Assembly: GCA_029641185.1 (NCBI GenBank)
Contig: JAPWGK010000008.1
Coordinates: 992,001-1,056,000 of the forward strand
Direction: 5' to 3'
Length of the DNA: 64,000 nucleotides
From: Pseudofabraea citricarpa
Lineage: Eukaryota > Ascomycota > Leotiomycetes > Helotiales > Dermateaceae
This document shows positions 20,036 to 39,723 of this stretch, piece by piece. The notes beneath the pieces are model-generated. The model was not told where the DNA came from. It made no database searches and worked only from the letters and a program-made list of their open reading frames with translations. Positions within the stretch are counted from its first letter, which is position 1. Each line of letters opens with the position of its first letter. Both the position numbers and the translations under genes were made by a program.

Positions 20036-21166
20036 TCACCATGCGACATATGTCTCCCACTTCAATACCCACGGTTTGTTGGCACACCAAAGTTCGTCTT
20101 TCATAGCAAATTCCTCCAAAGCATGCAAGCAGTGATTTGTGTGACCAATGTCCATGTCTCTAGGATTAACATGAATCCCCTCTAATTGAGCCTTGTACAT
20201 TCTTCTCAAATGAACAATACAATGTGCTATGTGAAATCGATCGCCCATTGGAATACCATTTACTTCCTCTCTATCAGATCCAAGAAATTTTGCATTCAAA
20301 TGAAGGCCTTTCTGATAAACATTGAGTAGTGCTGGCCATCGTTTAATAAACCATTGCCGAACCTCCCTCTCAAAATCAGTAAATGATGTTTTCGGGATAA
20401 GTGTTTGATCATCAAGCCGGATGGTAAAGTCCGTGGGATTGAGATGGGACGGGAACCATGAGGTAATATTCTCAGATGTTATCCTTTCTCGGAGAATGGG
20501 ACCTATGTTACCCTTTGGCACCGGGTGCAGAATAAAATGGCCGTGATATATACCATCGGGTCGGGTACCTATGAAGTGAACAACGGAGATCATCAAGAGA
20601 AATGAGAACGACAATATCCCGGCAACAATGACAAGATATCGGTACCGAAGATGATGAGCCCAGAAAGATTGTATCCACTGTCGTCGAGGTGGGTGCTCGT
20701 GCAGGTCCTCAAGAAGAAACTCTTCCTTTTGCGAAAACTCAATTCCAGGTAGATGATCTGCAGTTCTAGCAAAAACTGCATAGCTCTTCGAGTTTATTGG
20801 TCCATTCCTAAAGAATTCAAGGATGCTATGCCTGCCTTGATGAAGGCCTTCAGAGATATTGATTGCAGCTTTGCGGACGTCAAAACAAGCATTCATTTCC
20901 ATTGGACTAACACAAATAAGATATGACCTGTGTTGTTCTTTTCTTCGAAATAGCGGTATAGCCTTCCATGGTGAATTTTCTTGGGGAAGGCAAGAAATAA
21001 TCAGAATATCTCGGTAGTCGTGTGCACAAAGGGTGAGTATAAGCTCTTCTAAACTGACAAGTTTTTTGTTGAGTTTTAGATGCCGAGAAACCAAAACTTT
21101 AACTTGCATTTGATGAAAATTGGAAGTGGCTAGCTGATAATTGAAATTCAAAGAAGCCATCTCCAT
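20036..21166 (-). CDS. UstYa-like (DUF3328-type) oxidase 1, long N-terminal extension
   Basis: Single exon, 376 residues. The C-terminal half has the UstYa layout: one transmembrane segment (about 178-198), then a lumenal domain with paired metal-binding type motifs HIAHC (312-316) and HTNHC (342-346). UstYa proteins in dikaritin pathways oxidise or cyclise core peptides. Unlike ordinary 230-280 residue members it carries about 170 extra residues before the membrane segment, with no domain I recognise. The first motif departs from the usual H-[QH]-L-H-C, placing it with protein 2 in a divergent subfamily. It is divergently transcribed from UstYa-like 2. Family assignment is by motif, so catalytic activity is inference. 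Confidence 0.72.
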   Translation of the reverse strand: MEMASLNFNYQLATSNFHQMQVKVLVSRHLKLNKKLVSLEELILTLCAHDYRDILIISCLPQENSPWKAIPLFRRKEQHRSYLICVSPMEMNACFDVRKAAINISEGLHQGRHSILEFFRNGPINSKSYAVFARTADHLPGIEFSQKEEFLLEDLHEHPPRRQWIQSFWAHHLRYRYLVIVAGILSFSFLLMISVVHFIGTRPDGIYHGHFILHPVPKGNIGPILRERITSENITSWFPSHLNPTDFTIRLDDQTLIPKTSFTDFEREVRQWFIKRWPALLNVYQKGLHLNAKFLGSDREEVNGIPMGDRFHIAHCIVHLRRMYKAQLEGIHVNPRDMDIGHTNHCLHALEEFAMKDELWCANKPWVLKWETYVAW

Positions 21167-21753
21167 ATTATCTCTGGTTCGTTAAGGAAAATAACAAAGT
21201 AAGGCGGGGTGTTGAAAAATTGCTTCGAGGCGAAGATGGCTAAATTTCTTTTGTGTATGGTGTAAAGGGTACATGCGAGGCTGCGTAATTCATAACATCG
21301 AGTGTAGCTTGCCAGACAGAATCAGGCAGATGAGCTAGCGAAGAAAGCCAATATATAAAAATGGCCAATTATCTTCGTTAACGCGGAGAACTGTTGTCTT
21401 AAGCGAGGCAGCTCTTTTTTCTCTCGTTACGCCGCTGCAAGATGTTTTTAATTTTGCAATGGTGAATACATGAGCAAACCCTTTCCTATAGTTCTGGACC
21501 AGTAAAATTAGTTAACGCGCAGTTTAACTAGCTGACAGGATTTTCAAACTAGAGTGAAAGACCCACGGATTTCTCATGTCAGCTTTTGCAACCTCTATTT
21601 GATTGACCATTAGAACAAAATATTCACCACTATTATCTTTGCATACCTTACACAGATTTGGCACTGGAGAAATACTCAGAGATAACATTGAGACATAGAA
21701 AATTCCTAACATGTCCCCATTTAAGTAAGCCACCATACGAAACTTCTTGTGTC
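21167..21753. promoter_or_regulatory. Divergent promoter between UstYa-like 1 and 2
   Basis: About 590 bp shared upstream region. Contains TTAACGCGGAGAA (near 21378) and GTTAACGCGCAG (near 21511), similar to each other, but too few copies to call a site. Confidence 0.35.
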
Positions 21754-22535
21754 ATGAAAACTCTGTTTTATCATTTTGTATCTATATTATTCCGTGCTTC
21801 AGATTGGTACAGAAATCTCTTCTAATATATCACAGAGTCCCAGAGCTTTCTTCGCAGAAATACACAGAAATTCCAGTCACAGAAACTTCAGAAGTCAAAA
21901 ATCCTTTACGGCAAAGAAACTTCGTCTCTTCAATTCCACTTCGGTGGCAATCCCAGAGCCAATTTCGTCGCTTAGTGATATTTATGATCGGCTCTGTCCT
22001 GCTTTTCGTCACTCTCATTTCTGTTGCTATCACACTGCCACAAAGAGGTCAATATCACCCTGCTCAAGTAAATTCTCATCAACGCCTACACTGCGGAAAC
22101 ACAACAGCTGAGGCAATCTCACTTGGTTGCGAATTCGATCTCCTAAGCTACAGCTGGACACCCGAACCATGTTTTGATCGAGAGACATCATCAGATTTCA
22201 AAGAATGGCTGCTCCGTGAAGATCGTCTGTTTTCTGCATGGCCATTCTACGCCGATCAAGCAGGAACTGAATGGATTCCAGACGAGACTGCATTATCTTT
22301 GAGGACTGGATCTACGACTTGGACTACACAAGAGGAGCACCTGGGTCATTGCATATTCCTGATGAGAAGGCTACATAAGGTAGCAGCGAATGAGGCGCGA
22401 ATGAACTCTCGATATGGAAATTGGGATCATACTGTTCATTGTACGAATGAGGTTTTGAAGGGATTGAACGGACCAACGTTGAAACAGAAAACTCTACTCC
22501 GATCTTATTTTGGGGTTTCCTTCGAAAAGTGCTGA
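21754..22535 (+). CDS. UstYa-like oxidase 2 (divergent subfamily)
   Basis: Membrane-anchored lumenal protein of about 247 residues. The frame from 21803 to 22535 is secure: a transmembrane segment encoded near 21969-22035, then a lumenal part with paired motifs HLGHC (22338-22352) and HTVHC (22425-22442). It has extra cysteines in CGNTTAEA, GCEFD and PEPCFD that may form disulfides. The start is uncertain. The frame lacks an ATG before the membrane helix (ATG at 21984), and the best guess is a tiny first exon at 21754-21764 joined across a 38 nt intron with a poor donor. It shares the R-[RM]-x-[HY]-K-A stretch after motif 1 with UstYa-like 1, its divergent neighbour. Confidence 0.68.
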
Positions 22536-23449
22536 GTTTGCCGAGAATTACATTGCTCAAAATCAGTCACTACAGTCTCATTCAATGGGTCTCCTGCAAA
22601 CCCTGCTTCTAAGTTCTAATTGTAAAAATTGTCATGCAAACAAAATAAATCACATCCATGTCATAACCGTGTACCCCGGTACTTCTTTCCTGCTTGTATT
22701 TGTGGATTATTCATGAATAGAAGGTGGAAGTATAACCTTGCATGATAACGACGCACAATTCAAGTTAATGTTGCTATCGCAGCGCATATCAGGAAAGCCT
22801 AGGAATGACTGCCGCATAAATTTGTGAGGGTTTTTTGTTTGCATGTGTTCGTGACCCGTTGAGTCTTTGCTCTAGCGAGCCGCGAAGACTTCTGGACTCG
22901 CCTGTTCCCATTTTCTTTCATTATGGTTGCCTAAATGCGCTGTCGATCTGCCATGAAGTCGCGCGGAACCTCGTCACGTCGACTTACCTCGCCTCGAGCT
23001 TGCCTCAATCACATCCAAGGATCTCTTGCAGCCCTTTCTACCTACCGACGCCCCACTGTTTGACCAAAAGACAGGTCAAAGGATGCAAGCTTATTTTCCA
23101 GCCAACCCATATTTCCATATTTTTCTAGTCCGACAGTCGAGAGCACATAACATAGAATTTGTCAAGTAAAGTCATGATCACTCTCTTGTTGGCAAGAATT
23201 AAGCGAATATCACAGGGGTAGATAGTAGGGCACTGGTGGTGGCTAAGTAATGTCTTCTAAAATGACGACGCAATTTTCATTTTAATGAATGTCTATTCAA
23301 TCGGACGGAAATTGAATTTTGTTCTTAAAGGCACTCTCTTCCCAAGACCCATTCTCCAGGGAAAACAGAATTACTAGTCAACGACATTATAAAGAGCTTG
23401 TGAATCTTTGCAGACATGTTCTATCCCCTCTCCATCAATATCTCCATCC
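22536..23449. other. Intergenic, about 0.9 kb
   Basis: Between convergent UstYa-like 2 and 3. The segment 23374-23449 still encodes, in a shifted frame, a C-terminal tail typical of UstYa proteins (see UstYa-like 3). Otherwise nothing recognised. Confidence 0.45.
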
Positions 23450-24104
23450 TTATCCCCTGGAAGTTCCAGAGTTCCATCTGCGCAACAAAGTACCCCCTTG
23501 AAAACAATAAGCTTTCATTATTGCAGCGAGAGAAAAGAACCAAGTATTAAATACTTGCCTGTGCTAAATAATCCAAACAATGGAATAAATGACCTTCAAA
23601 GCTCTTAATCGGGTGGCCCGTATGGCCAGAATTTCCTGTGGTGGCCTTTTGGTGATCATGATGATCGGAACTCCGTCTCCGTTTCTCGTGTGGTGGATTC
23701 GCCTTTATCGCATCTCGAATCATCTGCAAGCAATGGAGCTGATGGAACATAGAAACACCGACTTGAGGTACGTCGTCTGGAACTTCGAGGTGAACACCAT
23801 TTGTGAGAAAATACGATGAATCAACATCTAGAAACCCACCCCCGGGAGGAACAAGCTGTTTCCACTTTTCTTCTTCGTTAGAAAACGAAGCATTGAACTC
23901 AATGCGATGTTCATGGATCAGTGACTGTCGGTAATTGAGAATATATTCAACGTGGTCGTAGATTCTGGCTGGTGTCCGGCCGGTAAATAGAAGTGTGATA
24001 AAAGAGGATGTGAAAGCAACCAGAACAAAGAATAGCACAGGCCTATCTGAAATAGAAATATTTCGAAAAGTTGGTTTGCCCATGGCTATGGAAAGAATGT
24101 ACAA
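23450..24104 (-). CDS. UstYa-family oxidase 3 (canonical motifs, frameshifted tail)
   Basis: Compact UstYa/DUF3328 protein, 197 residues. Exons 23559-24104 and 23450-23497 are joined by a 61 nt intron with a GC donor (GCAAGT) and AAG acceptor. This is the only splice that restores the conserved YLAQ-GVLCCADGTLE junction. One transmembrane segment (about 22-40) is followed by HQLHC (121-125) and HLFHC (172-176), the classic pair. Between them is an unusual His/Arg-rich loop (about 138-165). After TLE the frame hits TAA at 23450, yet the next frame continues to 23374 with a typical tail containing an EHVCKD motif. One extra C in a CCC run would explain this. The start may be the second ATG at 24083. 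Confidence 0.82.
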
Positions 24105-24485
24105 AGTACTGAGTACGTCTCGTGAAGTTTGAGATGCTTAAGCTTAATTAAGACGCGGAAACGTTTCCCATAGCTCCGTATAAAACCTTACCAGAACACG
24201 ATGACAACAAATTTGATGTCGAATATGCTATCAATTTTCTACAAGGGGTGGGAAAAAACATACCTGGGCCAATGATATGCATAACCGCCAGCGGTAAGTG
24301 GAGACCATGTTCACATAGCATCTGAACAGTAGAGTCCAAACGACAACACAGTTAGCCTGCATATACAGATATCTCATTTTGACCGAAATCTACTGCTTGT
24401 CTGATAAATTGATTAATTTTCGATTTGTCTCTCATTCTCAGATTCCATACCAATTTTATGCCATACACATCACAAAATTGATACC
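24105..24485. promoter_or_regulatory. Divergent promoter between UstYa-family 3 and 4
   Basis: 381 bp shared upstream region. Includes TTAATTAAGACGCGGAAACG (24145-24164). No clear repeated element. Confidence 0.35.
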
Positions 24486-25645
24486 ATGGAGAGCTTTATA
24501 AAACTAATCAACTTTGACCTACGAGACGCAAAGGCAAAGTTCATGCACCATTCAAGTTATTTTCACAACACCTCGGCTGAAAGCTCGAAAGCCTTGCTGT
24601 CATCTGCTCCAAATGAAGAAGCATTAGAGAAATTGCAAGATTTTGACGACGAAATCCCAAAAAGGAAGCGGCATCAACATCGGCCTTCATCAATTATACA
24701 CGCCTTTTTTACAGCTTTTTTATTTCTCTCCTCTGTTGTCTTGTTCTGGGATTATCGGAAGTCAAGAAGTAGCTTTCATGAAAAATGCGTATACAGTCTG
24801 TCGACACCATGTATGTACACCTTGAGATTTCTAAACTACAGAACGAGAGCTTATATAATACCGTTTTAGCTCCTGGGCTTGAGGCAGCTGCTGCAGCACC
24901 ATATGTCAGCTACTATTTCAATGGCTCATTCGGAGGTAATAAAGATTGGCGAGGACCGCCGAGTCCAGAACTGGATCAGCTGTGGAAGGAAAAAACGGGA
25001 GACCGTGAGTCTTTGACAATGATCTCTTGAGAAAGTTAATCACTGACATAAGTAGCAACATATGTTCCATTGACAGACGAGGAAGTAAGGGCAATAGGTA
25101 AAAACCCAGAACAGATGCACCGTGTCCCAGCAGAACTCCGACACGAATACGGAGATGGTATAATGGGCGGAATGGAGGTCTTTCATCAACTGCATTGCCT
25201 GGTAAGAAGAAAACCTTCGGTCGCTAATTTTAAACAAAGAATTGACGAGGCAGTAGAATATGATCCGCAAATACACATACATGGACTATTATGGAGAGGA
25301 ATTGCTTTCCTACGCCACACCTCGTATTCTTCGTGTCCATATAGGTGAGAACTCTCACAAGTCATGCCATATGTTTTGTTTTGCTGATTTCTCCTAGATC
25401 ATTGTATTGATATGATGCGCCAACTCATCATGTGCACGGGCGATACAAGCATGGTACTGAGTTATTGGATCGAGGGACGAAGACTGCCTATGCCAGATTT
25501 TTCAACGATGCACACTTGCCGTGATTTTGATGCACTGGTTGAGTGGCAGAAGGACCATAATATTAAGGAGTTCAAGTTTGTGGGAACCCCGTCTCCTGAT
25601 GAGATGGTTTTTACGCGACCAAATCGCCCAGATACTGCTCAGTAG
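24486..25645 (+). CDS. UstYa-family oxidase 4 (canonical)
   Basis: Full-length UstYa/DUF3328 protein of 313 residues. Exons 24486-24810, 24870-25004, 25056-25201, 25257-25344 and 25398-25645 keep phase and rebuild every family motif: transmembrane helix about 69-88, HQLHC (197-201) followed by NMIRKYTYMDYYG, then HIDHC (230-234) with DMMRQLIMC. The introns fall directly after the first motif and inside the second, the usual positions. The C-terminal extension ends with a conserved CRDFDALVEWQKDH block. Family members act in the secretory pathway on RiPP precursors, forming ether or C-C crosslinks or oxidising side chains. It lies immediately upstream of the precursor gene on the same strand, so it is the best candidate for the first modification. 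Confidence 0.92.
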
Positions 25646-26508
25646 ATAATGAATAGCATCCACTGCCCTATTCACGTAGCATGAATTACAACAACTTTTA
25701 TTCCCAAAGGCTATTACTATTTTCCGAGGGTCAAGTCCTTATAGACCAATTAGCCGAATTTCAATTTATATCTTTCTCGATTTCTCACTTGCTACCAACA
25801 TCACCATATTGTCAAAGAAAGGTTCAATAATCGTCTTAGTATCTATGAATTTCCCTATGAGATAAGCAGCGTTGCATGTATGGAGTGGACAATTCAAATT
25901 ATCTGGCCAACCGCGCGGCCAGAAGTTGCATTGCATTGTGTCATGAGCGTTCCGCTGAGTATGCAAGCAAGCCTCTGGTTGCCAAATTGTCAGTTCGTTT
26001 GGCGTGATCAGAGGCGGGTCCCGAAATAACACTCGCGCTCACTTTTGATGGATTATCTTGCTGTGCCACCCGTAATACTGATTCTAGAGTCACTAATTTC
26101 TCAAAATTAGCTCCACACGACATTGCTTATTTTTGAACGAAGCTAACCATTATCCTCCATCTTCCATCTGTCACACGTTAGACCTTCCGCCATTGAATTT
26201 CGCGTGTCGCGGCGATATTCCGTTTAAACATTATTTCATCTTAACGAGTACTAAGCAGGTACTGAAATCTAAGAACAAAGCAGCTTTACCGGCGGATCGC
26301 TGCTCGAACAAAATCTATACTCGCTTAACATAGAGATTCAAAAAATACTTGGAGCAAAATATCACCGCATTGAGACGAAGTTTATCGTACTATAAGATGG
26401 ATATACTACCCAGAAGCAAGGAAAAAGAGACAGCCTCATCTTTAGTTTCAAATTGTGCAATCAAGTTCACTCATTCCAAGTCTAATATTCTGCCAACCAC
26501 CTGTCAAG
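25646..26508. other. Intergenic, promoter of the precursor gene
   Basis: About 860 bp with no convincing gene. Contains GCGGCGATATTCCG (26210-26223). The 5' leader of the precursor mRNA probably covers the last 50-100 bp. Confidence 0.45.
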
Positions 26509-27222
26509 ATGAAGTTCATCACGGCCTCAGTCCTGATCACCAGTCTCGCCAATTTTGTGGTCGCCTCTCCCGTCCCGGTTAACCAGCCTGTTGCAATTGC
26601 CCGCCGAAGCCCCGAAAGTCTCGGTCTTCATGAAAGACAGGCAGGCTACGACCAAAGAGCTCTTTATGTTGATGACGACGAAGTTCTCAAGAAGAGACAG
26701 GCAGGGTATGACCAGAGAGCTCTCTACGTCGACGACGACGAGGTTCTAAAGAAGAGACAAGTAGGTTATATCCAAGTTGTCGCGTACAGTGATGACAAAG
26801 TCGTTAATAAGCGTCAGATCAAGTACGTTCAAGGGGCAGAAAAGCGTCAGGTCGCATATAGCCAAAGAGGGTTGTATAGCGAGGATGATGTTGCTGAAGT
26901 GGAAAAGAGGCAAGTTGCCTACAGTCAACGGGGATTGTACAGCGAGGATGATGTTGCCGAGGTCGAGAAGAGGCAAGTCGCATACGACCAACACGCTGCA
27001 TATGACGACCCGGATGAGCCCATTGTAGTCAAGCGACAAGTTGGCTATGACCAAAGAGCACTTTACACCGACGACGATGGTGAGACTCTCAAGACCAGAC
27101 AGGTTGTCTATGTCCAGCGTGCATTGTATGATGACGATGATATAGAAGCATCGGTGGTGGAGAAGCGTCAGGCTGCTTACGATCAAAGAGCCTTGTACGC
27201 TGACGAGGACGAAGAGTCCTAA
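26509..27222 (+). CDS. Secreted repeat precursor peptide, predicted RiPP (dikaritin-type) precursor
   Basis: 237 residues, single exon. The N-terminus opens MKFITASVLITSLANFVVA and is a signal peptide (cleavage near 19-20). A short leader with an RR site (32-33) follows, then ten tandem repeats from residue 44. Each repeat starts with Q-(A/V/I)-x-Y-x-Q and in nine of ten has a second aromatic at position 10, as in RALY or RGLY. An Asp/Glu-rich follower comes next and most units end in KR, the Kex2 site. Repeat starts are 44, 64, 84, 103, 114, 135, 156, 177, 198 and 221. This layout, with UstYa genes on both sides, is that of ustiloxin, phomopsin and asperipin precursors. I do not recognise the core. 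The true core could be the QxxYxQ end, the whole ten residues, or less. Confidence 0.9.
   Translation: MKFITASVLITSLANFVVASPVPVNQPVAIARRSPESLGLHERQAGYDQRALYVDDDEVLKKRQAGYDQRALYVDDDEVLKKRQVGYIQVVAYSDDKVVNKRQIKYVQGAEKRQVAYSQRGLYSEDDVAEVEKRQVAYSQRGLYSEDDVAEVEKRQVAYDQHAAYDDPDEPIVVKRQVGYDQRALYTDDDGETLKTRQVVYVQRALYDDDDIEASVVEKRQAAYDQRALYADEDEES
26638..27219 (+). repeat. Ten in-frame tandem repeats encoding the candidate core peptides
   Basis: Repeat units of 33-69 bp. Units 1 and 2 encode identical 20-residue peptides with 9 synonymous codon differences. Units 5 and 6 encode identical 21-residue peptides with 12 synonymous codon differences. Unit 4 is shortened to 11 residues and lacks the second Tyr and acidic follower. 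Unit 8 ends TR instead of KR. Confidence 0.92.
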
Positions 27223-27816
27223 ACCATCAATATACCTGCGGTATGTCGTGAACTCTCCATAAGTTACTCTGTAATACTGATTGTCTTCAGCAGCTTAATA
27301 TGTCAAGAAGAAAGGGATTTCATCCAACTAGTGACATGGTTGACGAAGACGAAAGGCAAGCACGAATATTACACGAGATTGAACAAGGGATGGGTTGGAA
27401 CTAGGGAACTTGATTTTATGATTTTGGACTTTTGAACAGGGCAACAGGAAACTGTACGTAGACCTAGTACACTCTTTTAAGTATTAGTCACAATTGCACG
27501 GAGAGATTTATTTTGATTATCCTCTAACCAACATGTGAAACCTTCAAATATATCCTTCTCAGTTGTGATTTAATCACTATCCCAGAAGCATTGGAAGTCT
27601 CTTTGTCGTCTTGGCTTCTGCTACAAAACTCATCGCAATAGGGCTGCTAGTTTTCTTCTCGCCAAGCCACATCTAAGGCAAGCTTCAGTGTTGCTAGATA
27701 TATTGAGCTTATGAACTGAGCTATTTAGGTTGTCATTCACATTGCTTTAATTGTCTGTCTATATGCTTTTGTATAAAATAACCGGCTTCAACAAGCACTC
27801 TTGTCCTGTCCTTGTA
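27223..27816. other. Intergenic, 3' region of the precursor gene
   Basis: A GTATGT...CAG stretch (27241-27290) just after the stop could be a 3'-UTR intron. Otherwise no gene or structure recognised. Confidence 0.4.
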
Positions 27817-28656
27817 TCAAATATTTTTCTTCATGAATACAGCATCCCAAAACCATGTTTTCCCGGTTGAGTCAACTTTCGAGAACAAATTATCCACCTT
27901 GTTGTAAACTTGATAGCCCCTTCTAGCATACCAACCTTGATTAGAAAACTAAACGGGGTTAGCACATTCATTCTTGAAAGCAGTTCAGAAAAGCTTGCCG
28001 GCGGAATAGTCAACCCAAGAGCTTTATATTTCTCTTCTCTTTCTGGATCATCCTTGCTAATTGCGTTCAAGGCTATGATCTTTGCACAGAGCGGTTCTGA
28101 AATCGCCAAATTCTCAACCGTATCCATAGCTGCTCTTCCCAACCCGCTTCCTTGGAGTGCACGTGAGACATAAAAGTTTGAAATCCAGTAGGCCCCTTCA
28201 TGGTTTCTCGTCAATCCCAAATATTCGAACTGGGTGGGCACAAGGCCCAAACAAATATGTCCAACGGCGGAAAAGGTTTTCTGCGGCAGTGGGATTATTC
28301 GTGGTTTTCCCCCAAAAGAAATTGCCGAATCGACCAGCGGCTCTTGTTCTTGGGGGTACATTTCAGCATGCTTGAGTAGTTTTACGTCTTTCTCGGGATC
28401 GGAGTCTTCCAGAACCTAAGAAAATTAAGCTTTTAGAGATAGGACGTAAAGCTGGGGTACTTACAATCCATTGTAGATTTAACTTCCCGCTTTCTTGACT
28501 CGCTTTCCATCCTTCAATGTTGTCATAATCCCACCCACAAGCAATGCGCTGTTGAACCAATCGCTCGAAATGTTCAGGGGAAGTGGGATCCCAAGGGATT
28601 AATAGGACTTGGGGTTTTGGGGATTTGATAAATGGGGTGGGGACAATGGAGGCCAT
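27817..28656 (-). CDS. GNAT-family N-acetyltransferase in the peptide cluster
   Basis: Acetyl-CoA-dependent transferase, 246 residues. Exons 28465-28656, 27999-28415 and 27817-27948. The second intron (27949-27998, 50 nt) uses a GC donor (GCAAGC) with a CTAAC branch-like site and TTTAG acceptor. It is the only join that carries the frame into the family's closing block, SNQGWYARRGYQVY. The acetyl-CoA motif is VSRALQGSGLGRAAMDTVE (Q-x-x-G-x-G). Lying 0.6 kb from the precursor, it could acetylate a modified peptide, but the protein resembles widespread fungal GNATs and has no signal peptide. A role in the pathway is therefore conjecture; it may be a bystander. Confidence 0.85.
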
Positions 28657-30289
28657 GGCGAGTACACTTCTAAAGGAGAATAGGAAAGTAAAGGGTCGAT
28701 AATATATATACTTGTAAAAAATATTCTCAAGTCTGCGGCACATGTCGTTTGCGACCCGGTTTCTAACGATGACTCATTTAATCTTGTCAGGAGATGTTGA
28801 AGGGCGCGATACAACGACCAAAGGGCGCGATACAATAATAATTAATAGCTCTTAAAGATCGCTCTGCCGTGGCGCCGCCAAGACATCAAACGATTGTAAG
28901 AGTGTACTGTATTGTCTACCTCCAATACGGTAATGGTAATGGGTGCTGCTTATTTGTCGTTGGCTTGTATAAGCTCGGCCATTGCTCAAATCTACCAATA
29001 GGAGAACTTCATGTCTCCACACAAATGTCAAACCATTATCGCACGTTTAGCCACCGAGACCTTCACTTGCCACATTGCTCTTTCGAACCAACATAAATGT
29101 AGGCATTAATCGTTAACACGATGGGTAGGTCGAAGGGCGCGGAGCCCTGAAATTGCCTCCCTTCAACTCCAAGAGTACCTCGATAAACTTGCCGGGAACA
29201 AGAACCAGCCTGCCTACAATGGTTAATGTGAATGACTCACTACTTGGTTATTGGATCCGTAGCCCGTTAATTTGTTGAGATAGCAATTAGAGAACGAGCG
29301 GGAGCAGGTACACAATGTCTTATGGCTATGCTGTTGTACCAAGGGGGGGATCCTTCACTTATGATATCTCTCCGCTCGAGCCATAACTCCACGCTAGTCA
29401 TAGTATACTCCAGTCAAAAAATTAGCATTTTGGTACGGATTCTTTATTGCGGAAAGAGTCAAGAATATTGTAGTCTTCTCTTTATCGGCGATTCCGGTTT
29501 GATTCGCTAGGTATAACTTCGTTTCCTCCCAGTTTCCCAACGCTAATTATCCGCACCTGCCCTACCCTTTGACGACCTCCAGCAAATATGACACAGCGAA
29601 TAGTCGTGGGTATTGAGGTAGACAGATCGTTCGAGGTCACCGAGGCACACTTGTGCAAGTGTGATAGCTGGTAGAGACTTGGTGCTGGCTTTGAGGAAGT
29701 TCGCCCTCTGCTGGTCGTCTTCAATGACTTGCAACGAATATCTCTACCCGTGTTTGACAAACGGAAGAGGAGGTATCGGTGTGGGGCATTGGTTGGAGTA
29801 CGAGCGAGACAGGAGGCATATAAACAAGTAATATTAACCCAATGGGCAATGATATGAGGCTGATGGAACGCGGGGGAGTGATCACTAAGATAACTAGGAA
29901 AACACGGCGCTGGCATTGTGCATGGCCAAAAGTAACAGAAATACCTCCGAAGGTAGATAGGTATCGCAATGAAAAGGGCGAGGGCGGTTGACTCGAAATC
30001 AAGGTATTTATGCCTAAGGCCCAAAGTATATAGTTCTACGCGCACGTGATACTTTGCCCCTCCACAACCTTTGCAACCATCAGACTATTGAACAAGGCCA
30101 GCTTTTCTCAAAGATAAACTATCAAATACTGCTGCCCAATCCATCGCGTCGACTTCAATACTGACAGGCTGATTATTCTGTTCGAATTTCTGCAGTATTC
30201 CCCATTCATTCTTCGTAAAGTGGTATGTATGCTAACAAGTTGTACCTGTAGACCATCTGGCTGGACGATTGATCCACCCGTTTCCAACA
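28657..30289. other. Intergenic, 1.6 kb
   Basis: No gene I can support; a 187-codon open frame on the minus strand (29482-30045) has no domain, poor composition and no homologue I recognise. A 14 bp direct repeat, AGGGCGCGATACAA, occurs at 28801-28814 and 28822-28835, about 150 bp upstream of the GNAT start. Confidence 0.45.
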
Positions 30290-30843
30290 ATGATTACCGT
30301 CGTTCGAGGGTTTAAAATGGATCGTGTCAAACTCAATGATTTTTTTGCGACAAACGGAGGTCCTTGGATAGGAGACTATGTCATGTCAAGGTCGGATCAA
30401 GAAAGCATTTCAAAGCTGTTTGCCGGCCTTGAATGTGACTGCGAAGTGAAGATATTCCTACCCTATGTGAATGGGATTCAATGCCCAGATTATCTTTTCA
30501 TCTGCTGTCAGTGGATAGACGTCTTGGATTCTATAGACCTCGATCACATCCTTCAAGATCCAGTGCCAAGCACGTTTGAGGCGTTGCGCAATATTCTCCA
30601 ACCTAAGGTGCCCATTTCGAGGTACGTTGTGTATAACTCGGAGATTGAGTCGGAGGAGCGATCACCTAGAGTATGTCCCATCGTCTACATTATGCTCTGC
30701 AGTGAAGGCTAGCTGACTCAGCGTAGCTTGATCCTCCGGCATATCCCTGTGGACAGTGCGATGCTATTTTCAATCGAAAGGACCTTCTTCAGCGGCATCT
30801 TGGAGGTCGACATAGCGTACTTGTACATAGCACGGATGAGTGA
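30290..30843 (+). CDS. Small C2H2 zinc-finger protein, otherwise unknown
   Basis: Exons 30290-30670 and 30727-30843 (56 nt intron, phase 0) give 165 residues. The first 125 residues show no known domain: a mixed alpha/beta stretch with several aromatic and Cys residues. The second exon contains a clean classical zinc finger, CGQCDAIFNRKDLLQRHLGGRH, with spacing C-2-C-12-H-4-H. A single finger near the C-terminus suggests nucleic-acid or protein binding. Without the second exon the protein would look like an orphan, so the splice choice matters and is supported by good GTATGT and TAG signals. No link to the peptide pathway can be shown. Confidence 0.65.
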
Positions 30844-31202
30844 GCCCCTGGAAGGCTGAAACCTCAAGAATTGCAAAGTCAGCAGGTCACTCACAAAGGA
30901 GAATCGCTGTGGACCTTCTTCAAGCTATTCCCGTTGTTTATTTATATTTTTGTTCAATGGTTTGAGGCTGCATGGCAATCATTCATTTCTGTATCTCTCA
31001 ATGAGCGGTGAATATCGTCTTCGGCGGGCAAATGATTAAAAAAGAGGATAGTGGATCTCATAGTGGGATATGACAACATTAGCATTTGCCTAAAGTCTAC
31101 TGTTCAGGCCCTCAGGGCCTGATTAATTAACTAAAGGGTGACGATAACTCCAAAACAAAACAACTTCAGCATTCACTCAACAGCATTACCTACACTATCC
31201 CG
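30844..31202. other. Intergenic between convergent genes
   Basis: About 360 bp, AT-rich, with a short GGCCCTCAGGGCC palindrome (31108-31120) that could be a hairpin. Nothing else seen. Confidence 0.4.
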
Positions 31203-31953
31203 CTAATTCTCTCCGGGTAGTACGACAGCTCTGATCGCAAGGAGCGTGGTTTCGACGATTTGCCGATTAGTTACGTTGTCATGGTTGAATGACGGCGCAT
31301 TGCGATGATTAATCTCTCCTGTCTGCGGATTCACCCAGGGCCCCCCAATTTCGCGGAGACGTATATCGAAATCTTGTCGACCGCTTCGGCCCTGCATCCA
31401 TAAAGGGTTCTGGAATTGGCCGTTTGGGCACCACACAAAAAACATGAAGTGTCTACCAACTGCGATGCATAAGAATACATCCTGCGTCTGGTAAGCCGCT
31501 AGCCGAGATTCTGTCGCTTCGATGATAACATTCCTCCAGCCACTTGCTGTGTGGTGAGACGCTGCTTTGCATTCAATGTTCAAGTAGTCGCGTACGATAC
31601 GGTCATCGAAGTAAGCACCCCCGCCTTGTACTGGTGTGTATTTGATGCTTATGATATCTGGCCTGATACGAGATGGCCGATCAGTGCCACGGTATGGTTC
31701 CCTATCAATGGACCAAGACTCCCCAGTGGCGGTTCGGGATGGAAAATATGTCCTAGCTATCTCTGTCCACGCATGCTGAACAACATCTTCCTGATCATAC
31801 TGGTCACCGTATGCAATCACATCTCGGACCTTGTTGAATGCAGCACAATTCCCATCCCAGTAATGGTCCACTTGCTGTTGTTGAGCAGCCCTGCAACGTC
31901 GACATTAGCCTTTGTTTAAAATACTTATAAACATTAAAACAGGAGAGTTACAT
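31203..31953 (-). CDS. PD-(D/E)XK nuclease-like hypothetical protein
   Basis: About 229 residues from 31203-31890. There is no ATG at the head of the long exon. An AT-GTAACT donor and TTGCAG acceptor place a two-base first exon (31952-31953), so the start codon is split as AT|G across a 61 nt intron. A TATA-like TATATAAAAC lies just upstream. The protein contains RPDIIS, then about 25 residues later LNIECKA, followed by a helix and strands ending in FMFFVWCPN. This D...ExK order on a beta-sheet is that of the PD-(D/E)XK phosphodiesterase fold, including fungal hypothetical proteins of this class. Nuclease activity is inference. It shares a promoter region with the Tyr-rich protein. Confidence 0.6.
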
Positions 31954-32644
31954 TCTGTGAAGTTTGGTCTGATCAAGTGACGTTTTATATATAGGTAAAC
32001 TCGTATTGGTTGATACTACCACTGGTGGATTGCTACATTCTAGATTAGCTTCTCTAAGTTCTCTTCATGGTCAGTTGCAATTGAGTAAACCTCACCTAGT
32101 GTACGTTTTCCGCCTTGACACAAACTTTCAGTATCACCATTGGATTGAACCAGATGTTCTTATATGTGTAGCACACCCATGTTGGATCACATTTCGTAAC
32201 CGCCCAGGAGGGGATACAGACCAACAACCTATGTAAGGCAGAGAACTAACAAACTATGTAAGGCAGAGAACTAACAAACTATGCAAGGCAGAGACGCGAG
32301 ATTTCCTTTGCTTTTGTAAATTCAATTCAAACGTATAGACTCTGACTCAACAATGTCTACTGACTCATACGTGCCACCCGTGCGGCCGAATGGTCGATAT
32401 AAAAACTTACTACCGCGATGAAGAGCGGCTAAAGGAAGCTACTTTTACAGGAAATGATTGGTTACAGGAGAGGCAACACTCACTGGCGCTTAACTGTCGC
32501 TTATAGTGCAGAGATGATTGGTCCTACTTTGAGCGCTTACTAACTCCACTTTGTCTTTGGAATCACTCCACTTCCAACATTCTTCGTTGGAAACACACGA
32601 GGCAGATAATAGACCACGAGGCAGATAATTGATTGCGAGACAAC
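31954..32644. promoter_or_regulatory. Divergent intergenic region with 25 bp tandem repeat
   Basis: Upstream of both the PD-(D/E)XK-like gene and the Tyr-rich gene. Holds a 25 bp unit, CTATGTAAGGCAGAGAACTA plus ACAAA, in two full copies and a diverged partial third at 32229-32295. Confidence 0.55.
32229..32295. repeat. 25 bp tandem repeat, about 2.7 copies
   Basis: Copies at 32229-32253 and 32254-32278 are identical; a third diverges after about 16 bases. Confidence 0.8.
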
Positions 32645-33420
32645 ATGGACAATATAACAAGGCGTTCGCCCTCTTCGAGCCCAGACTTCAAAGCAGAGGT
32701 CCCATCTACAACATCCGAAGACAAAGAAGACCGCAGTCTTCCAGCATCTACCAGCGACATGTTAGTTCATCCCTCCTCTTAATAGAAGTCAATACTTATC
32801 ATTTTCCCAAGGTCTACTACCATCACCGTTTACTATGTAGCCAGTGATAACGCGTATTATTCTACTGATGGATCTGGGCTAAGCCTGTGAGTTTGTCCTC
32901 TTCTGTTCAATTTCACATACTAATCTGACCCTCGTGGAAAGAGACGTGCAGCTGTATTATTGGGACGAGCAGCGGAGGTACTACTATGCTTATCCAGAAA
33001 ATCAGATACCAGGGTTAGTTTGTCATATTTTTACTCAAGCTCCGAATTTTATAGCTCACCCGTGTGCGAAGGTACACTCGAGCCTCAGATGGACGATTTT
33101 ACCCAGAAGCCAGCGTGGCGGGATCATCATCAAGTTACGCTCAGCCATCCAGCAATACTAGTAGTTGGGGAACATCGGGAACTACACTCTCGGCGTCATC
33201 AAACGCTGCCCAACTCTTTCAGATGGCTTCAAGCAATCCTAACCTAGGCTCTACGGGGGGAGGTTCTGTTCTTAACATGAATTACCCGAGGGGTCGAATA
33301 TCCAGTTCGCGGGCTTTCAGACTGTCGCCTAGATATATTGCCTTTGCAAAACACCGCGGATCGGACCCGATACATGCCAAATTTGCCAAAGCAGTCGCCC
33401 GGCTGCAGGGAGGAGTGTAA
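32645..33420 (+). CDS. Tyr/Ser-rich hypothetical protein
   Basis: Exons 32645-32760, 32812-32886, 32942-33013 and 33072-33420 join in phase to 203 residues; the last acceptor (GAAG at 33071) is the only one that keeps the reading QIPGYTRASDGRFYPEA open. The first 37 residues are acidic and Ser/Thr-rich. The centre is strongly Tyr-rich with repeated Y-Y-x-(S/A)-D or D-x-x-Y-Y patterns (VYYVASDNAYYS, LYYWDEQRRYYYAY). The C-terminal half is Ser/Gly-rich low complexity ending in a basic stretch. No signal peptide, membrane segment or known domain. I do not recognise it; the short exons make the model tentative, though phase is consistent. Confidence 0.55.
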
Positions 33421-34251
33421 TCGTGTTGGAAATCAGATGCCCGTTAAGAACAGAAATGTGGCTTGGCTGATGTGTGGAGGTAATGGAATCCATGAGTCTT
33501 TTCTTTTCCTATATCACCTTTCGTTTCTGGCTCTGCCACCAATGCTTAGCTGGGTTTGAGTTTAGTGCGCCTTGGAAGGATGGATAGGTAGATGATGGAT
33601 ATGATAGAGACAATGTAGGGGCACAAACAGACGGCTGAGAATATTGCGTAGTCTTAGGGAGTTTGACGTTGACCGTTGTGAATTTAATCATTTGTCCAGT
33701 CGTTTCCTCACTAAGTTCACATTTCACAGAAATATTGATATGGACAAACAAATATTTTATATTTTTTATCCTGCTGGTTCCTTTCGTTATTCGATACCTG
33801 CTATGTCCTCCTACAAATGCTGAACATGACGAGGAAAATTGAAGGCGGATAGAGTAAACGAGTACAACTCTTGGCCTTGTCTGGTGTTTCTGGCAGGGGA
33901 GCGGGGATACCCTTTTTGGGTGTTAGGTATGAAAATTTGAGCTTAGGCATATATTTAGCTACCTGACTTACTGTATCTTTATCCTGACTTGACGTTATAT
34001 TTTACCAAACCAGGCTGTGGCTGAAAATAACTAACCAGTTTCTTGTTGCAAGAAACCTATCAATCGTCGTACGACGCACCTAAAGTCTACGTTTGTAAAT
34101 CTGAATAATAATCGTATCTAATATAAAGTAATTTGTTCTTAATTCTTACGATTCAGTCTCCTAGACAATCTAAGAGACTTTGTTGGATGATCACTGCCTA
34201 GCTATACCTTGTATGCAAAGATATATAAATACAAATAACAGATGGCCTGTC
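33421..34251. other. Intergenic, 0.83 kb
   Basis: 3' region of the Tyr-rich gene and upstream DNA of the 5S gene, AT-rich. A TATAAATA lies near 34224, about 30 bp before the 5S gene. No protein gene seen. Confidence 0.45.
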
Positions 34252-34370
34252 ACATACGACCATAGACTGAGGAGAATTGGGCATCCCGTCCGCTCTGCCA
34301 TACACAAGCCTCAGATCGGTAGATTAGTAGTTGGGTGGGTGACCACCAGCGAATACCTACTGTTGTATGT
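34252..34370 (+). rRNA. 5S ribosomal RNA gene (possibly a divergent copy)
   Basis: 119 nt starting ACATACGACCATAGACTGAG and ending in CTACTGTTGTATGT followed by a T run, the Pol III terminator. It contains the invariant segments GCATCCCGTCCGCTCT and AGTAGTTGGGTGGGTGACC of ascomycete 5S rRNA. The two ends pair (ACATACGAC with GTTGTATGT). The helix III/IV region and the stretch AGATCGGTAGATTAG are less typical, so this may be a variant or an ageing copy. In Pezizomycotina 5S genes are dispersed singly like this. Confidence 0.88.
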
Positions 34371-34843
34371 TTTTGCCATTTATTTTTGCCATCGTTCCAA
34401 GTCAGCATAGACCTGGAGAACACGATAAATGAAAAGCTACTAACGTCCATATAATTTGAAACATGATCTCAGATATTCTATTTCTTCATTAATTTTCTAT
34501 TTTCATTTCAGAAGAAAAAAACCGAATTTTCATTTCGGAGTAGAGATGCTAGATATACAAATACGCGAGCGAGCACATTTTTCCGTGGTTGAACCAATTC
34601 ACACAAAAAGGACTAGATGAATTCCCCCATGTGGGAAGTCCAAATTTCATTTCTCAAGAGTTCATTTCAAGAACGAAAGTGGGCCTAAATCTTCTCTTTC
34701 GGCTGTATTTGTCGAGTTGGAAGGTGATTTCCAACTTTGTTTCAACCACAAGTCCCATGATAGTGTACCTTTCACACAACAATGAAAATCCATTCGCGCT
34801 GCCTATCAATAGCCATTTCCAGGTGTTTCATTTTTTATTTATT
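34371..34843. other. Intergenic, 470 bp
   Basis: AT-rich DNA between the 5S gene and UstYa-family 5; nothing recognised. Confidence 0.45.
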
Positions 34844-35794
34844 CTATGGAGGAGGAAAATTCGGTAGAGCCTCGATTTTCTTGCCTCCAATTGATGCCCA
34901 TTCGACAATTCTATTCCAATTTCGACAAGTATGTGGAACATTTGTTTGCGCTTCGTAAGCTCTTGGAACACCTGACTTTGTCCACTCGGTATACTTGAGA
35001 GGATACAAGGTCGTATCTGGCATGCACATAATAGCTTTCCGTAGATCTTCAATGCAGTGAGCTGTATGCTTGATGCTCACGTACTCGTTTTCGTTTTGAG
35101 GATTCTCGCGTCCCCATGCGATTCGCCGTAGACGTGTCAAGCACTATCAATATATCAATAAAAGTCCCAGATTAATTCGTGAGAAGGGATAAATACGTGG
35201 AGATGATGAAATACAGAAACAACAACCGGGTACACAGTGTCGTCGTCTACCGAAACGACGCTCGGGGGACTTAAGCGTTCGTTCTCCTTCGCAGTAATCC
35301 CAGCTCGCATATCTATTTCATTGTTAGATCAAATACATTTGAAAATCACAAACTTATCGCTCACATCTAGTTAAATCATCCCAATGTGCTTCCGACACGG
35401 GAGTTAGTGGGCCCTCGTAAGGGCTGACTTCTCTATTCGGATCCTCATCCCAGAACATGGTCAAATTGAACTGGGTATCCTCATATTCAATATAATCTTC
35501 CACCGACTCTGAATAAGTTGTCAGTCCGTGGTTGCTAACCGCCAAGAGACAAATCATACCTGGCTCGGTTGGCCATTTCTTTACCACAGGCTGAGCATAG
35601 ATGGCCCGAAGAATTGTAACATACGCAATAAAGCAAGTGGTATGAAAAATCAGGAAGAGGATATGCTTTCGAAATCTTTGAAATCTTGACCCAGTATGCC
35701 TAGCTAGAGCATGCTCAATGTCATTATCCAGCCCCTCGTCGTCAGAAAGGAGGATTCTGTCGCTATCCTCTTCTTTGCTGGAGATAGAACTCAT
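34844..35794 (-). CDS. UstYa-family oxidase 5
   Basis: 264 residues. Exons 35560-35794, 35365-35508, 35197-35312 and 34844-35143, all in phase. An acidic cytosolic tail is followed by a membrane helix (about 44-63). The lumenal part includes SVVSVDDDTVYPVVVSVF leading into HHLHC (162-166), split by an intron before its Cys. Then HTAHC (191-195) is followed by IEDLRKAIMCMPDTTLYPL, which matches the C.(A/P)DTTL block of UstYa proteins. It ends with HTCRNWNRIVEWA, the CRxWxxIxxW closing motif. It is divergent to the S33 peptidase across 430 bp. Likely acts on peptide substrates in the secretory pathway; the exact chemistry is unknown. Confidence 0.88.
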
Positions 35795-36224
35795 ATTAGA
35801 GAAGCCTATGACCGCACCAATTATTCATTAAAATTCCAGTATGTACGTGGATAAATACCACATGGAAACATACCTTTGATAAGCCTAAATTATGTTCTTC
35901 TGGCGGCCCGCCTGGTTGGCAACTTCTTGTTTGGGCGTTTCGCTGAGTACCCTTGTTCCGGCCTCCAGTCCATACAGAACCTTGCCGCTTATCATGCACA
36001 ATCAACAAACCCATCATCGTCATCACCGCCCATCTCACAATTCCATGCCTCAAATTTCTTGTTCTTCAATCTCCACCTCCATATGCTGCAGAGCGGAACA
36101 CAACCTGACTTGCAGTTCCCCACATGTGCCATTGAAAGCACAGAAGTTCTCTGAGTTGGTTTCTTGGCACGCCTCTTCGTCTTTAGAGCCAGGTGACCGG
36201 CCGAATTCAATAGACAAACTCGAC
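35795..36224. promoter_or_regulatory. Divergent promoter between UstYa-family 5 and the S33 peptidase
   Basis: 430 bp shared upstream region; overlapping short frames are not protein-like. No specific motif identified. Confidence 0.4.
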
Positions 36225-38500
36225 ATGATGGACAAGGCAATTCGAACATCCCAGTCAGAGGGAAGTCAATCCCGGCCCACGAGTCAGAAACCGTGTCGAA
36301 GTACTAGCTCACGTCGCTTTGTAATTGTATTTGCGATTGGCTTGGCATATCTTCTTTGGTGGTATCGAGACATCATTCTGCCAGATGCTAAGGATGTATT
36401 GGACCATGGGTTGAATAGCAACAATGATGTGGATTGGAATACGGTAGAAGAGTACATTCCCTCTTTCGTGAGGATGAAGAGCTGATATTTCGTAGATTAA
36501 GCCTAGTGAGAACCTTCAATGGGCACCATGCCTTGATGAATTTCTTTGCGCTCGACTTACTGTGCCTATGGATTACGCCAGACCTTTGAAAATGTCAAAG
36601 AATCACCCAAAAGTACACATCGCACTCATGATGTTCCCGGGTATCAATCATACAACTTCTGGAAAGTTCTCGGCGTCCCCGTTGCTATTGAATCCTGGCG
36701 GCCCTGGCTCATCTGGAGTTCGTATGATACGAACCTGGGGCAATCGAGCTCGAAAAATGACCAGTGATGACCAAGACGTGATTGGTTTTGATCCCCGAGG
36801 AATTGGAGAATCAACACCTCAAGTGGATTGCTTTTCATTCCCGTCTCATGAGGCACCAGACCAAGAAAACGTCTCTCAAGGAGCCTTCAATCGAATGACT
36901 TGGGAAGCAGCAGGATTAAATACCGGAATTATCAACTTGAAGAGTGATGATGCTTTGATCAACCTGGACGATCGTACCAAGTCATTAGCGAAGCTCTGCA
37001 ATTTAAAGGATGCCTTGCATGGAGGAAATAGTATTCTCAGGCATATCAATACTATGAATGTCGTCAAAGATATGCTAAGTATAATTGATGCTTGGAGCGT
37101 GTGGACTTCTTCGGGTCATGCCCCGAAAGCTGTGACAATTGATGATGAGGTTGTCGACCAGCCGATTAAGCTCAAATATTGGGGATTCAGCTACGGCACT
37201 TTGCTTGGTTCAACATTTGCAGCTGTTTACCCCGAAAGAGTTGGCCGGATTGTTCTTGACGGGATCCTTAACGCGAATGACTACGTCAATTATTCTTGGA
37301 CTAGTCACACAAAACACATCGATGCAGTGCTGGCATCTTTTTTCCAGTATTGTTCTCTTGCGGGGGAGTCTTGTCATTTATACCGCCTTAACGATTCAGC
37401 TTCGGATATTGAAGTAAGATTTCATAATCTTATGGAGAAGGTGAACCAGAACGCAATCACTTTGACTTACCCAAAGACAATGATGCCCGCTGTCATAACT
37501 TTTGCTGATGTCAAGGACTATCTTTTCCAGGCTATGTTCCGTCCAATGGAAACATTTCCACGCTTGGCTCAGCTTCTGAATGCAATTGACAGAAAGGATG
37601 ATGATTTTATAGCTACCGAGATCAAACCCGATCCCTCACTCGACTCTATAGGTGTGTGCAATAAGCAGAAATTGACATTCGATATTACAGAAGCTGGACG
37701 AGCTGTATCATGCAGCGACAAGAGATATCCTGTATGTAATGCAATCACTCATTTTGAGAATCAAGTAGTCGCGCCCTACAGGTATCCCTGCTTACAGCTT
37801 CTGTGTTTTAATAGTTCAATGCATCCATCACAGATTTGAAGGATATTTATCGCGACTTCTCCAAGACATCTTATTTTGCCGATGTTTGGATGAGTCAAAT
37901 GATTGGTTGTCGCCACTGGAATATTTCAGCAATGGGACCCAGCATTCCATTTCAGCCTCGCCCAAAGACTATAAAAGATGAACCAATCACGACCTCGTTC
38001 CCCCTTCTCTTTGTATCTACTTCTGAGGATCCTGTCGGGCCTATCCAGTAAGGATATTTTACCACTCAACATAATTATTCCTATAGGATGACGGAGGCTA
38101 AGTCAATTGCAGTGGTGGTTTAGATATGGCACTTAGATTTCAAGATGCTGGCTTCATTGAACAAAAGTCAGAAGGTCACTGTTCTTCATCAGTTCTCTCG
38201 CAGTGCACAGTGAACAAAGTGCGATCATACTTTCGAGATGGCATCGTGCCACCTCCGCCTGTGCTTGGGAAAACCCTGCCTGAAGGGAGATGGGACCGGT
38301 GCGAAAGAGATGAGTGGCCATGGAAGCCTTTCGAAAAGGATCAGTGGAAGAAAGATAAGATGGCTATCCAGAATGAGGGAGAGACAATTGCCGATCGTAG
38401 TGAATATGGTGCGGAATCAGTTGAGGAGGAGGCTACTCTTTTGCAGACTTGGAAGGAGATGCAGCGCGACATTGGGCAATGGAAATTATTCGCAAGGTAA
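36225..38500 (+). CDS. Membrane-anchored S33-type alpha/beta-hydrolase (tripeptidyl/prolyl aminopeptidase-like)
   Basis: 691 residues. Exons 36225-36443, 36496-37731, 37815-38047 and 38113-38500. An N-terminal anchor (about 32-47) is followed by the DWNTIKPSENLQWAPC entry typical of this fungal family. Next come the oxyanion motif NPGGPGSSG (about 139-147), the nucleophile GFSYGT (Ser305) and a C-terminal TAP-like domain. That domain carries STSEDPVGP for the acid and GHCSS for the catalytic His. Relatives remove short peptides from free N-termini. Placed among UstYa genes and divergent to UstYa-family 5, it is a good candidate for trimming Kex2-released peptides in the secretory pathway. All catalytic elements are present. 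Confidence 0.88.
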
Positions 38501-38688
38501 CATGTTTCATAGTCGAAGTAGTCTTTGTACGAGTTTTAAATTAGATATATTTATATGCAAGAATTGACATGTGTCTATTAAGCTAATCAGGAAGAGAAAG
38601 GTTGACCTTTGGCGCCGAAAATAATGACGTGGCCATCGTCGTTTTCTCGCAAAAGACACTACCTAGTTTATGAAATCCGACCAGATGT

Positions 38689-39723
38689 TCACGGCATGTT
38701 CTCATAAACGTCTTCGGGATTTGGCTTTTTCCAGAAATCTACTGGCAGTTTTTCCGGTCCTTGATGATCTTCAGCCCATTGCCTGACCTCGTCAAAGTTG
38801 CGGCATTTGTGCTGCGTATTAAAGTCCGGAAAGGGTTGCGGGTCTGATGGTTTCCACCAGACTTTCCCGAGCACACTGACATCAACGGTACACATCAATT
38901 GCTGACGCAGTATATCAAGACAATGTGCTTGCATCAAGGTTAGTTTTCAGTATTGTTCCAGGAACGATAGGAACTTGACTCACAAACGTGGTAGCGGACG
39001 ATGGTATCGTCGTTTTGAAAAGCCCCTTTGCCGAGAGCATGGTAGTAGTTATAATTGTAATATAGAGATTGTCGAAGGAGATTCTGCCCATCAGTCAGAA
39101 ATTGGTCGCAGTCTATTGACTTCCCATCTCATACCAAGCAGTGGAGGTGGTGGAGACCTTCCACATTTACCGGAAAACCACCGCCATACTTATCGGCAAC
39201 TTGCACCTGTGATGATCGAAGGCCTGACTGCGATGATAGTTTAGCTGGGATTATTGATGCTCTGTCTATTTGTCTGTTAGGCTTTATGAACAGTTGATCA
39301 ATTGCCACTTCACCTACAATCTACACCCAAAGCTTCCCATGCGGCGTCAACTTCAGGACCAGCATTCTGCCGATAGATATTCTCATACATCAAAGATCCG
39401 TTATAATTGACCATCTCGTACTTGACATTCATGTCTTTCATCAACGGTGCTGCAGATATTAGCCAAACCCCCTTCCTCGGTAAACTTCACTCACAGTATA
39501 AGAGATTTGACTTCGAGCCATCTTGGCTACTTATCCATATCCCAAGAGTTATGGCTACAGAAAAACATGCTACAAAGCCCAGAAATGTATACAATTTTCC
39601 AGCTAAGCCATCGCGGGAGGATTTAGAGTACGAAGTTTTGCTTGACGGTACGGTCAAAGACTCGCAATCATCCGTCGGTACTGGTGTGAATTTGATTTCT
39701 TCGTCAATCTGATTGCCATGCAT
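38689..39723 (-). CDS. UstYa-family ox­idase 6
   Basis: 276 residues. Exons 39495-39723, 39318-39449, 39135-39265, 38984-39083 and 38689-38927, phase-consistent throughout. Membrane helix about 46-64. The lumenal domain has NYNGSLMYENIYRQNAGPEV, then DAAWEALGVDYR, then KYGGGFPVNVEGLHHLHCLN. HHLHC is at 159-163, followed by NLLRQSLYYN; HVSHC is at 196-200 and DILRQQLMC after it. The closing block HKCRNFDEVRQWAEDH is conserved. This is the best-conserved UstYa member in the window and matches the widespread UstYb-like type found in many ascomycete clusters. It marks the right-hand limit of the predicted peptide cluster. Confidence 0.92.

Follow-up and report, generated by a model that had tools for sequence, protein, structure and literature searches.

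Dikaritins are ribosomally synthesized and post-translationally modified peptides (RiPPs) defined by UstYa/DUF3328 genes beside Kex2 repeats (PMC7329392, PMC12048977, PMC10512285, PMC6514808). In the available portions of the literature on dikaritins and Kex2-processed repeat proteins (KEPs) drawn on here (PMC7329392, PMC6339444, PMC12048977, PMC10512285, PMC9632046, PMC7099791, PMC6514808), predicted precursors with DUF3328 neighbours number 1758 (PMC7329392), and the tally of reported dikaritins in a 2022 review stands at only five (PMC10512285). Tyrosine occurs in 65.6% of the repeats of DUF3328-linked precursors and in 38.2% elsewhere (PMC7329392, PMC12048977, PMC10512285, PMC6514808). The asperipin-2a cluster (aprA/aprY/aprT/aprR) combines the core FYYTGY with one UstYa gene, a transporter and a reductase (PMC12048977, PMC6514808), and ustiloxin and phomopsin clusters have a Y-x-I-x core and a tyrosinase, with S41 peptidases in phomopsin-like clusters (PMC7329392, PMC10512285, PMC6514808). 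Here, we analyzed a 64,000-nucleotide stretch of the Pseudofabraea citricarpa genome (contig JAPWGK010000008.1 of assembly GCA_029641185.1; C42:992001-1056000, contigs being numbered C and extracted loci L; genome of 44 Mb in 43 contigs), referred to as the window. Positions 20036-39723 of the window are read as a predicted dikaritin-type RiPP cluster, with a Kex2 repeat precursor and UstYa genes, at a probability of roughly 0.7. The following features carry this reading.

26509..27222, plus strand: precursor, a Kex2-processed repeat protein of 237 aa (single uninterrupted open reading frame [ORF])
26638..27219, plus strand: ten repeat units of the precursor (unit split and codon comparison)
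24486..25645, plus strand: gene D, UstYa, 315 aa, five exons, HQLHC and HIDHC (gene model; Pfam UstYa 184 bits)
23374..24083, minus strand: gene C, UstYa, 210 aa, two exons, HQLHC and HLFHC (gene model; Pfam UstYa 36 bits)
34844..35794, minus strand: gene G, UstYa, 264 aa, HHLHC and HTAHC (model with one splice junction set by hand; Pfam UstYa 125 bits)
38689..39723, minus strand: gene I, UstYa, 253 aa, HHLHC and HVSHC (gene model; Pfam UstYa 156 bits)
20036..21166, minus strand: gene A, UstYa-like, 376 aa (start codon uncertain), HIAHC and HTNHC (UstYa 15.9 bits, cut-off 25)
21711..22535, plus strand: gene B, UstYa-like, 237 aa, HLGHC and HTVHC (gene model; no Pfam match at E <= 0.1)
36225..38500, plus strand: gene H, S33/TAP-type alpha/beta hydrolase, 686 aa, GFSYG nucleophile motif (splice junctions set by hand; PF00561 and PF08386)

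The precursor frame runs from an ATG at 26509 to a TAA ending at 27222 and encodes a hydrophobic N-terminus (MKFITASVLITSLANFVVAS), a short pro-part and ten units, which start at 26638, 26698, 26758, 26815, 26848, 26911, 26974, 27037, 27100 and 27169. Its top 19-residue hydrophobic window covers residues 4-22 with a mean hydropathy of 1.72, which together with inspection is a weak test of a signal peptide. Each unit consists of a Q-x-x-Y-x-Q-x-x-x-Y core, an acidic spacer and, except in the last unit, a Kex2-like site. The core makes up the first ten residues in nine units, and the spacers behind these nine full cores, not counting the Kex2 residues, span 7-11 residues, of which 2-6 are acidic. 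The cores are QAGYDQRALY (twice), QVGYIQVVAY, QIKYVQGAE (short), QVAYSQRGLY (twice), QVAYDQHAAY, QVGYDQRALY, QVVYVQRALY and QAAYDQRALY, and there are thus eight different ones among the ten units, a diversity on which the initial annotation had not remarked. Gln1, Tyr4 and Gln6 are fixed in 10/10 units and Tyr10 in 9/10, unit 4 being short, and KR precedes 8/10 units. The initial annotation, which had described a signal-type protein at this position with ten repeats mostly at KR sites and conserved Gln at positions 1 and 6 and Tyr at positions 4 and 10, was borne out in both respects.

Units 1 and 2 encode the same 20 residues although their codons differ by 9 silent changes; for the 21 residues shared by units 5 and 6, the count is 13. 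Amino acid changes are zero in both pairs. Since these pairs differ by silent changes alone, the repeat array is not a product of chance. The nine full cores gave a proportion of synonymous differences (pS) of 0.785 versus 0.228 for nonsynonymous differences (pN), a pN/pS of 0.29. The silent-only pairs and these counts suggest that the repeats are old and the frame is translated, and they support the view that the protein sequence of the precursor is under selection. A search of the genome with the precursor matched only the precursor itself.

Two HxxHC motifs were indeed found in all six neighboring proteins for which they had been claimed (A, B, C, D, G and I). Within each of them, a stretch of 19 residues reaches a mean hydropathy of 1.92-2.78 (residues 178-196 in gene A), and with the precursor and hydrolase H included, a hydrophobic segment is present in 8/8 proteins. 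All six had also been called UstYa/DUF3328 proteins; this stands for C, D, G and I (4/6), which exceed the Pfam UstYa (PF11807) cut-off of 25 bits, and not for A and B, which are only UstYa-like. According to the gene models, the four UstYa and two UstYa-like genes all lie within 12.5 kb of the precursor, the end of gene D being 0.9 kb away from it; A-B, C-D and G-H are divergent pairs, and the outer bounds proposed before, 20036 and 39723, coincide with where gene A stops and gene I starts, respectively. The locus holds an N-terminal signal-type segment (a weak test), repeats between Kex2 sites and UstYa genes with two HxxHC motifs, and the dikaritin combination that had been named for it is present as a repeat precursor beside four Pfam-recognized UstYa genes.

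Two further genes, which the initial annotation had not mentioned, adjoin this set, and the membership of both in the cluster is uncertain.

27831..28656, minus strand: GNAT-type acetyltransferase gene adjoining the precursor (PF00583 27.2 bits, cut-off 20.7)
17792..19763, plus strand: Zn2Cys6 regulator adjoining the cluster (ORFs 17792-18865 and 18882-19763; Zn_clus and Fungal_trans_2 in the first ORF)

With the asperipin-2a cluster, in whose available descriptions there is neither a tyrosinase nor a peptidase gene, the locus shares several Tyr in the core and UstYa-type oxidases (PMC12048977, PMC6514808); it differs in its six HxxHC proteins, S33-type hydrolase, GNAT gene and variable Q-x-x-Y-x-Q-x-x-x-Y cores. 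A signal-type N-terminus, Kex2 units, at least two UstYa genes and a regulator gene are shared with phomopsin and ustiloxin clusters (PMC7329392, PMC10512285, PMC6514808), but Y-x-I, which belongs to their core, occurs in 0/10 focal units and no match to a tyrosinase or S41 peptidase was found within the window (tyrosinase, PF00264, was searched exon-wise, and its counts are lower bounds). The epichloecyclins (GigA) likewise stem from one precursor that yields varied cyclic peptides with a Tyr-based oxidative ring, but with four repeats and hepta-peptide rings (PMC7329392, PMC6514808), a likeness drawn without a comparison of core sequences. Lichen RiPP clan R2 also has a UstYa gene with GNAT acetyltransferase genes and none of the characteristic dikaritin tailoring enzymes; in its available description, however, no repeated precursor was found and the UstYa gene is single (PMC12048977). 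The core had been said to match no known one. Indeed, the named dikaritin cores in the available literature differ from it and a text search of 5.39 million papers found none of six focal core strings. That search did not extend to the tables supplementing the KEP surveys, one of which covers 7878 KEPs, and an earlier listing there is possible. The core is without a counterpart in the literature text searched, and the kind of cluster is already known.

Several observations weigh against a dikaritin-type cluster. The nearest tyrosinase and S41 peptidase matches, at C42:1074557 and C42:1060570, are ~55 and ~41 kb off, an absence softened by the asperipin-2a cluster, which as far as described also has neither (PMC12048977, PMC6514808). 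ER precedes unit 1 and TR precedes unit 9, unit 4 is without Tyr10 and most of its spacer, and a dynamic-programming (DP) gene finder placed two introns in the precursor, for which the open intron-free frame was retained. No 7- or 8-mer was common to all five promoter regions; six 6-mers were, which equals the maximum of 200 shuffles, and these were also present in 1-5 of 10 control promoters. Finally, G, H and I sit 7.6-12.5 kb from the precursor, beyond a gene-poor stretch, and may have another role.

This last point leads to a variant of the dikaritin-type reading, not exclusive of it, in which A-B-C-D and the precursor form one pathway and G-H-I are remnants or part of a different one. We regard this as possible, with the odds against it. 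Between the two halves is a gap of ~6 kb, where four ORFs lack any Pfam match and a 5S rRNA gene is located, and the closest relative of gene I among the loci examined (52% over 156 aa) is at C23:569743, where no precursor was found in the 3.4-kb slice. However, the ORF scans revealed no other precursor in the window, and gene H is flanked by the UstYa genes G and I. The 5S rRNA gene is at positions 34252-34371 of the window (Rfam 74.7 bits).

It is also conceivable, though improbable, that the precursor gives rise to plain linear (pyroglutamate) secreted signal peptides like alpha-pheromones and that the UstYa genes serve another pathway. A Gln right after a Kex2 site suits pyroglutamate formation, which counts for this view. 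In the available survey text, 6120 of 7878 KEPs have no DUF3328 neighbor, nor, with three exceptions, do KEPs annotated as mating factor or pheromone (PMC7329392). Moreover, a second UstYa gene set lies 41-58 kb off. It starts ~4.6 kb right of the window (C42:1060570-1077118, window coordinates ~68570-85118; L011-L013) and comprises an S41 peptidase match (C42:1060570), UstYa matches (1063129, 1072684 and 1076831), a tyrosinase (1074557-1075200) and, as precursor, a 14-unit Y-V-I-P array (C42:1064209-1064853). By its predicted genes, this set is phomopsin-type and, though near the focal cluster, separate from it. Since it has its own precursor and UstYa genes, and since four UstYa and two UstYa-like genes surround the focal precursor within 12.5 kb, with gene D ending 0.9 kb away, linear peptides are an improbable account of the locus. 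The region between both peptide gene sets (window 41632-51610) contains HET-domain, NPHP3_N (NLR-like), DUF7025 and AAA-lid genes.

The genome has at least 16 UstYa loci, which with 15-kb margins make up 1.3% of the 44 Mb, and yet four UstYa genes are found no more than 12.5 kb from the focal precursor. Several dikaritin-type clusters per genome are not special, since nine are described for Venturia inaequalis in the available text of PMC9632046. In a scan that covered the window plus 31 loci and took in 3446 six-frame ORFs with a minimum length of 45 aa (single-exon scans, which miss intron-split precursors), we found Kex2-repeat arrays at 6/12 UstYa loci covered by at least 8 kb of sequence. 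The remaining four loci had no array in slices of 3.3-3.6 kb (three loci) or in a neighboring 3.1-kb slice (C23:1769828). For each of the six arrays, including the focal one, a UstYa match starts at a distance of 1.1-1.6 kb; the other five are as follows.

C42:1064209-1064853: Y-V-I-P array, 14 units
C18:65723-66289: EFPFPTYAGVEKR array
C28:353811-354161: WIYPPPDRK array
C34:180044-180274: STALYSYIVADSE array
C22:58370-58798: QGIQGLHNYVTLKVKGS array

At pS values of 0.59-0.82, these five had a pN of 0-0.028, versus 0.228 for the focal array at similar pS (units used: focal, 9/10; Y-V-I-P, 14; FPFPTYAG, 8; WIYPPP, 6; QGIQGL, 3; STALYSY, 2/3), the unit patterns having been picked after inspection and fixing most control residues, which by itself lowers the control pN. 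With a pattern-free split at Kex2-like sites, pN was 0.282 for the focal array, 0.072 for Y-V-I-P, 0.042 for WIYPPP, 0.117 for FPFPTYAG, 0.135 for STALYSY and 0.380 for QGIQGL, the last three values being inflated by non-repeat leader stretches that were kept. In unit alignments, the control arrays appear as near-identical blocks and the focal array as varied cores. Judged by its codons, the focal array is diversified, in a comparison with few control arrays of one genome that is not a rate test. Although this high pN, the truncated unit 4 and the two non-KR junctions could also mark a decaying array that no longer makes a product, such decay is very unlikely in view of the open frame of 237 codons, the pN/pS of 0.29, the silent-only changes in two unit pairs and the retention of Gln1, Tyr4 and Gln6 in 10/10 units, with random placement of changes in the 7 distinct full cores (unit 4 and duplicates excluded) leaving at least four fixed positions in just 2% of trials (post hoc).

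Gene H had been described as an S33-type protein with a membrane segment, and indeed its Abhydrolase_1 (PF00561) and TAP-like Abhydrolase_4 (PF08386) matches are above the Pfam cut-off and an N-terminal hydrophobic window covers residues 33-51 (mean hydropathy, 1.65). The GFSYG motif, the aspartate of SEDP and the histidine of GHC have aligned counterparts in Carboxylesterase A 5uoh, a solved structure. The solved chains that match gene H are Carboxylesterase A, Protease and Hip1, and its relatives are named esterase and protease alike. An S33-type gene in such a cluster looks unusual: a word search of the literature, which is not a proof of absence, found no co-mention of dikaritin or DUF3328 with S33. 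A special tie between hydrolase and cluster is called into question by two findings: the closest relative of H, on C12 (48-55%), is on a contig without a UstYa match, and among the other genomic relatives only the one on C39 adjoins genes related to gene B.

If the locus is a dikaritin-type cluster, the precursor would enter the secretory pathway, Kex2 would cut after KR to release peptides with an N-terminal Gln, and an exopeptidase would trim the basic and acidic C-terminal residues. The UstYa oxidases may then act on the fixed Tyr4 and/or Tyr10 and form an ether or C-C crosslink or a desaturation. Gene H may trim the peptides, possibly by removing the N-terminal Gln-x-x tripeptide to leave Tyr-x-Gln-x-x-x-Tyr. 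Since the non-fixed positions vary, one precursor would yield up to eight related products as a mixture. If H were a tripeptidyl peptidase that exposes Tyr4, some other cause would have to be sought for the fixed Gln1: Kex2 or the oxidases might recognize it, for example, or it might serve as a protecting pyroglutamate until the peptide is trimmed. The full combinatorial pathway, with up to eight peptides on a fixed Tyr/Gln frame, removal of Gln-x-x by an S33 tripeptidyl peptidase, closure of a Tyr-to-Tyr ring by UstYa and some of the chemistry, in this and other fungal RiPP clusters, contributed by a UstYa sister family that Pfam misses (A and B), is doubtful as a whole.

A search with gene B gave 13 further matches at six other loci of the genome, and gene A matches one of these B-family members, at C23. 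In a ten-row alignment of the family, the CG...EA...GC and W.P..C blocks are complete or almost complete in eight rows, and both HxxHC sites are visible in most; the slice edge cuts off two rows ahead of the second site, row L037:1809-2651 retains just the Cys of both sites, and gene A is without the first block. Five B-family proteins had no Pfam match above the cut-off, and the family has no name in the two libraries searched, Pfam and NCBIfam. In hhalign, seven B-family proteins aligned with five UstYa proteins at a probability of 18% (E 0.0014) with both HxxHC sites aligned, which is suggestive of a relation at the profile level; fold models were weak. For four of the six other loci, a UstYa locus is no more than 15 kb away (probability by chance, ~4e-7 for randomly placed loci), a distance limit chosen after the matches were seen. 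The other two are located by an S33-type gene (C39:532541-534034) and 2 kb from a tyrosinase match (C39:959658). The former locus (C39:532541-536786; L035 and L040) has the S33/TAP-type gene and two B-family genes, with no UstYa match listed on the contig and no ORF with three or more KR in its two slices, and may represent this kind of cluster in a form without UstYa. A large UstYa cluster at C22:56894-91924 (L015-L019) has four B-family matches and a gene I relative, together with a three-unit precursor in which, as in the focal one, Gln stands right after KR and an acidic stretch follows the core. On the basis of these predicted genes, it is the closest parallel to the focal cluster seen within the genome. 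On C18, two UstYa exons with equal scores lie ~49 kb apart on opposite strands (5604-5849, plus; 54258-54503, minus) and could reflect an inverted duplication.

Genes A and B, as predicted here, belong to an HxxHC family that Pfam misses, which suggests that surveys based on DUF3328 only may undercount the proteins of such clusters. Moreover, four of the ten core residues are fixed and the other six positions vary, which hints at where the oxidases tolerate change, and such variable cores would provide a natural test of oxidase substrate range.

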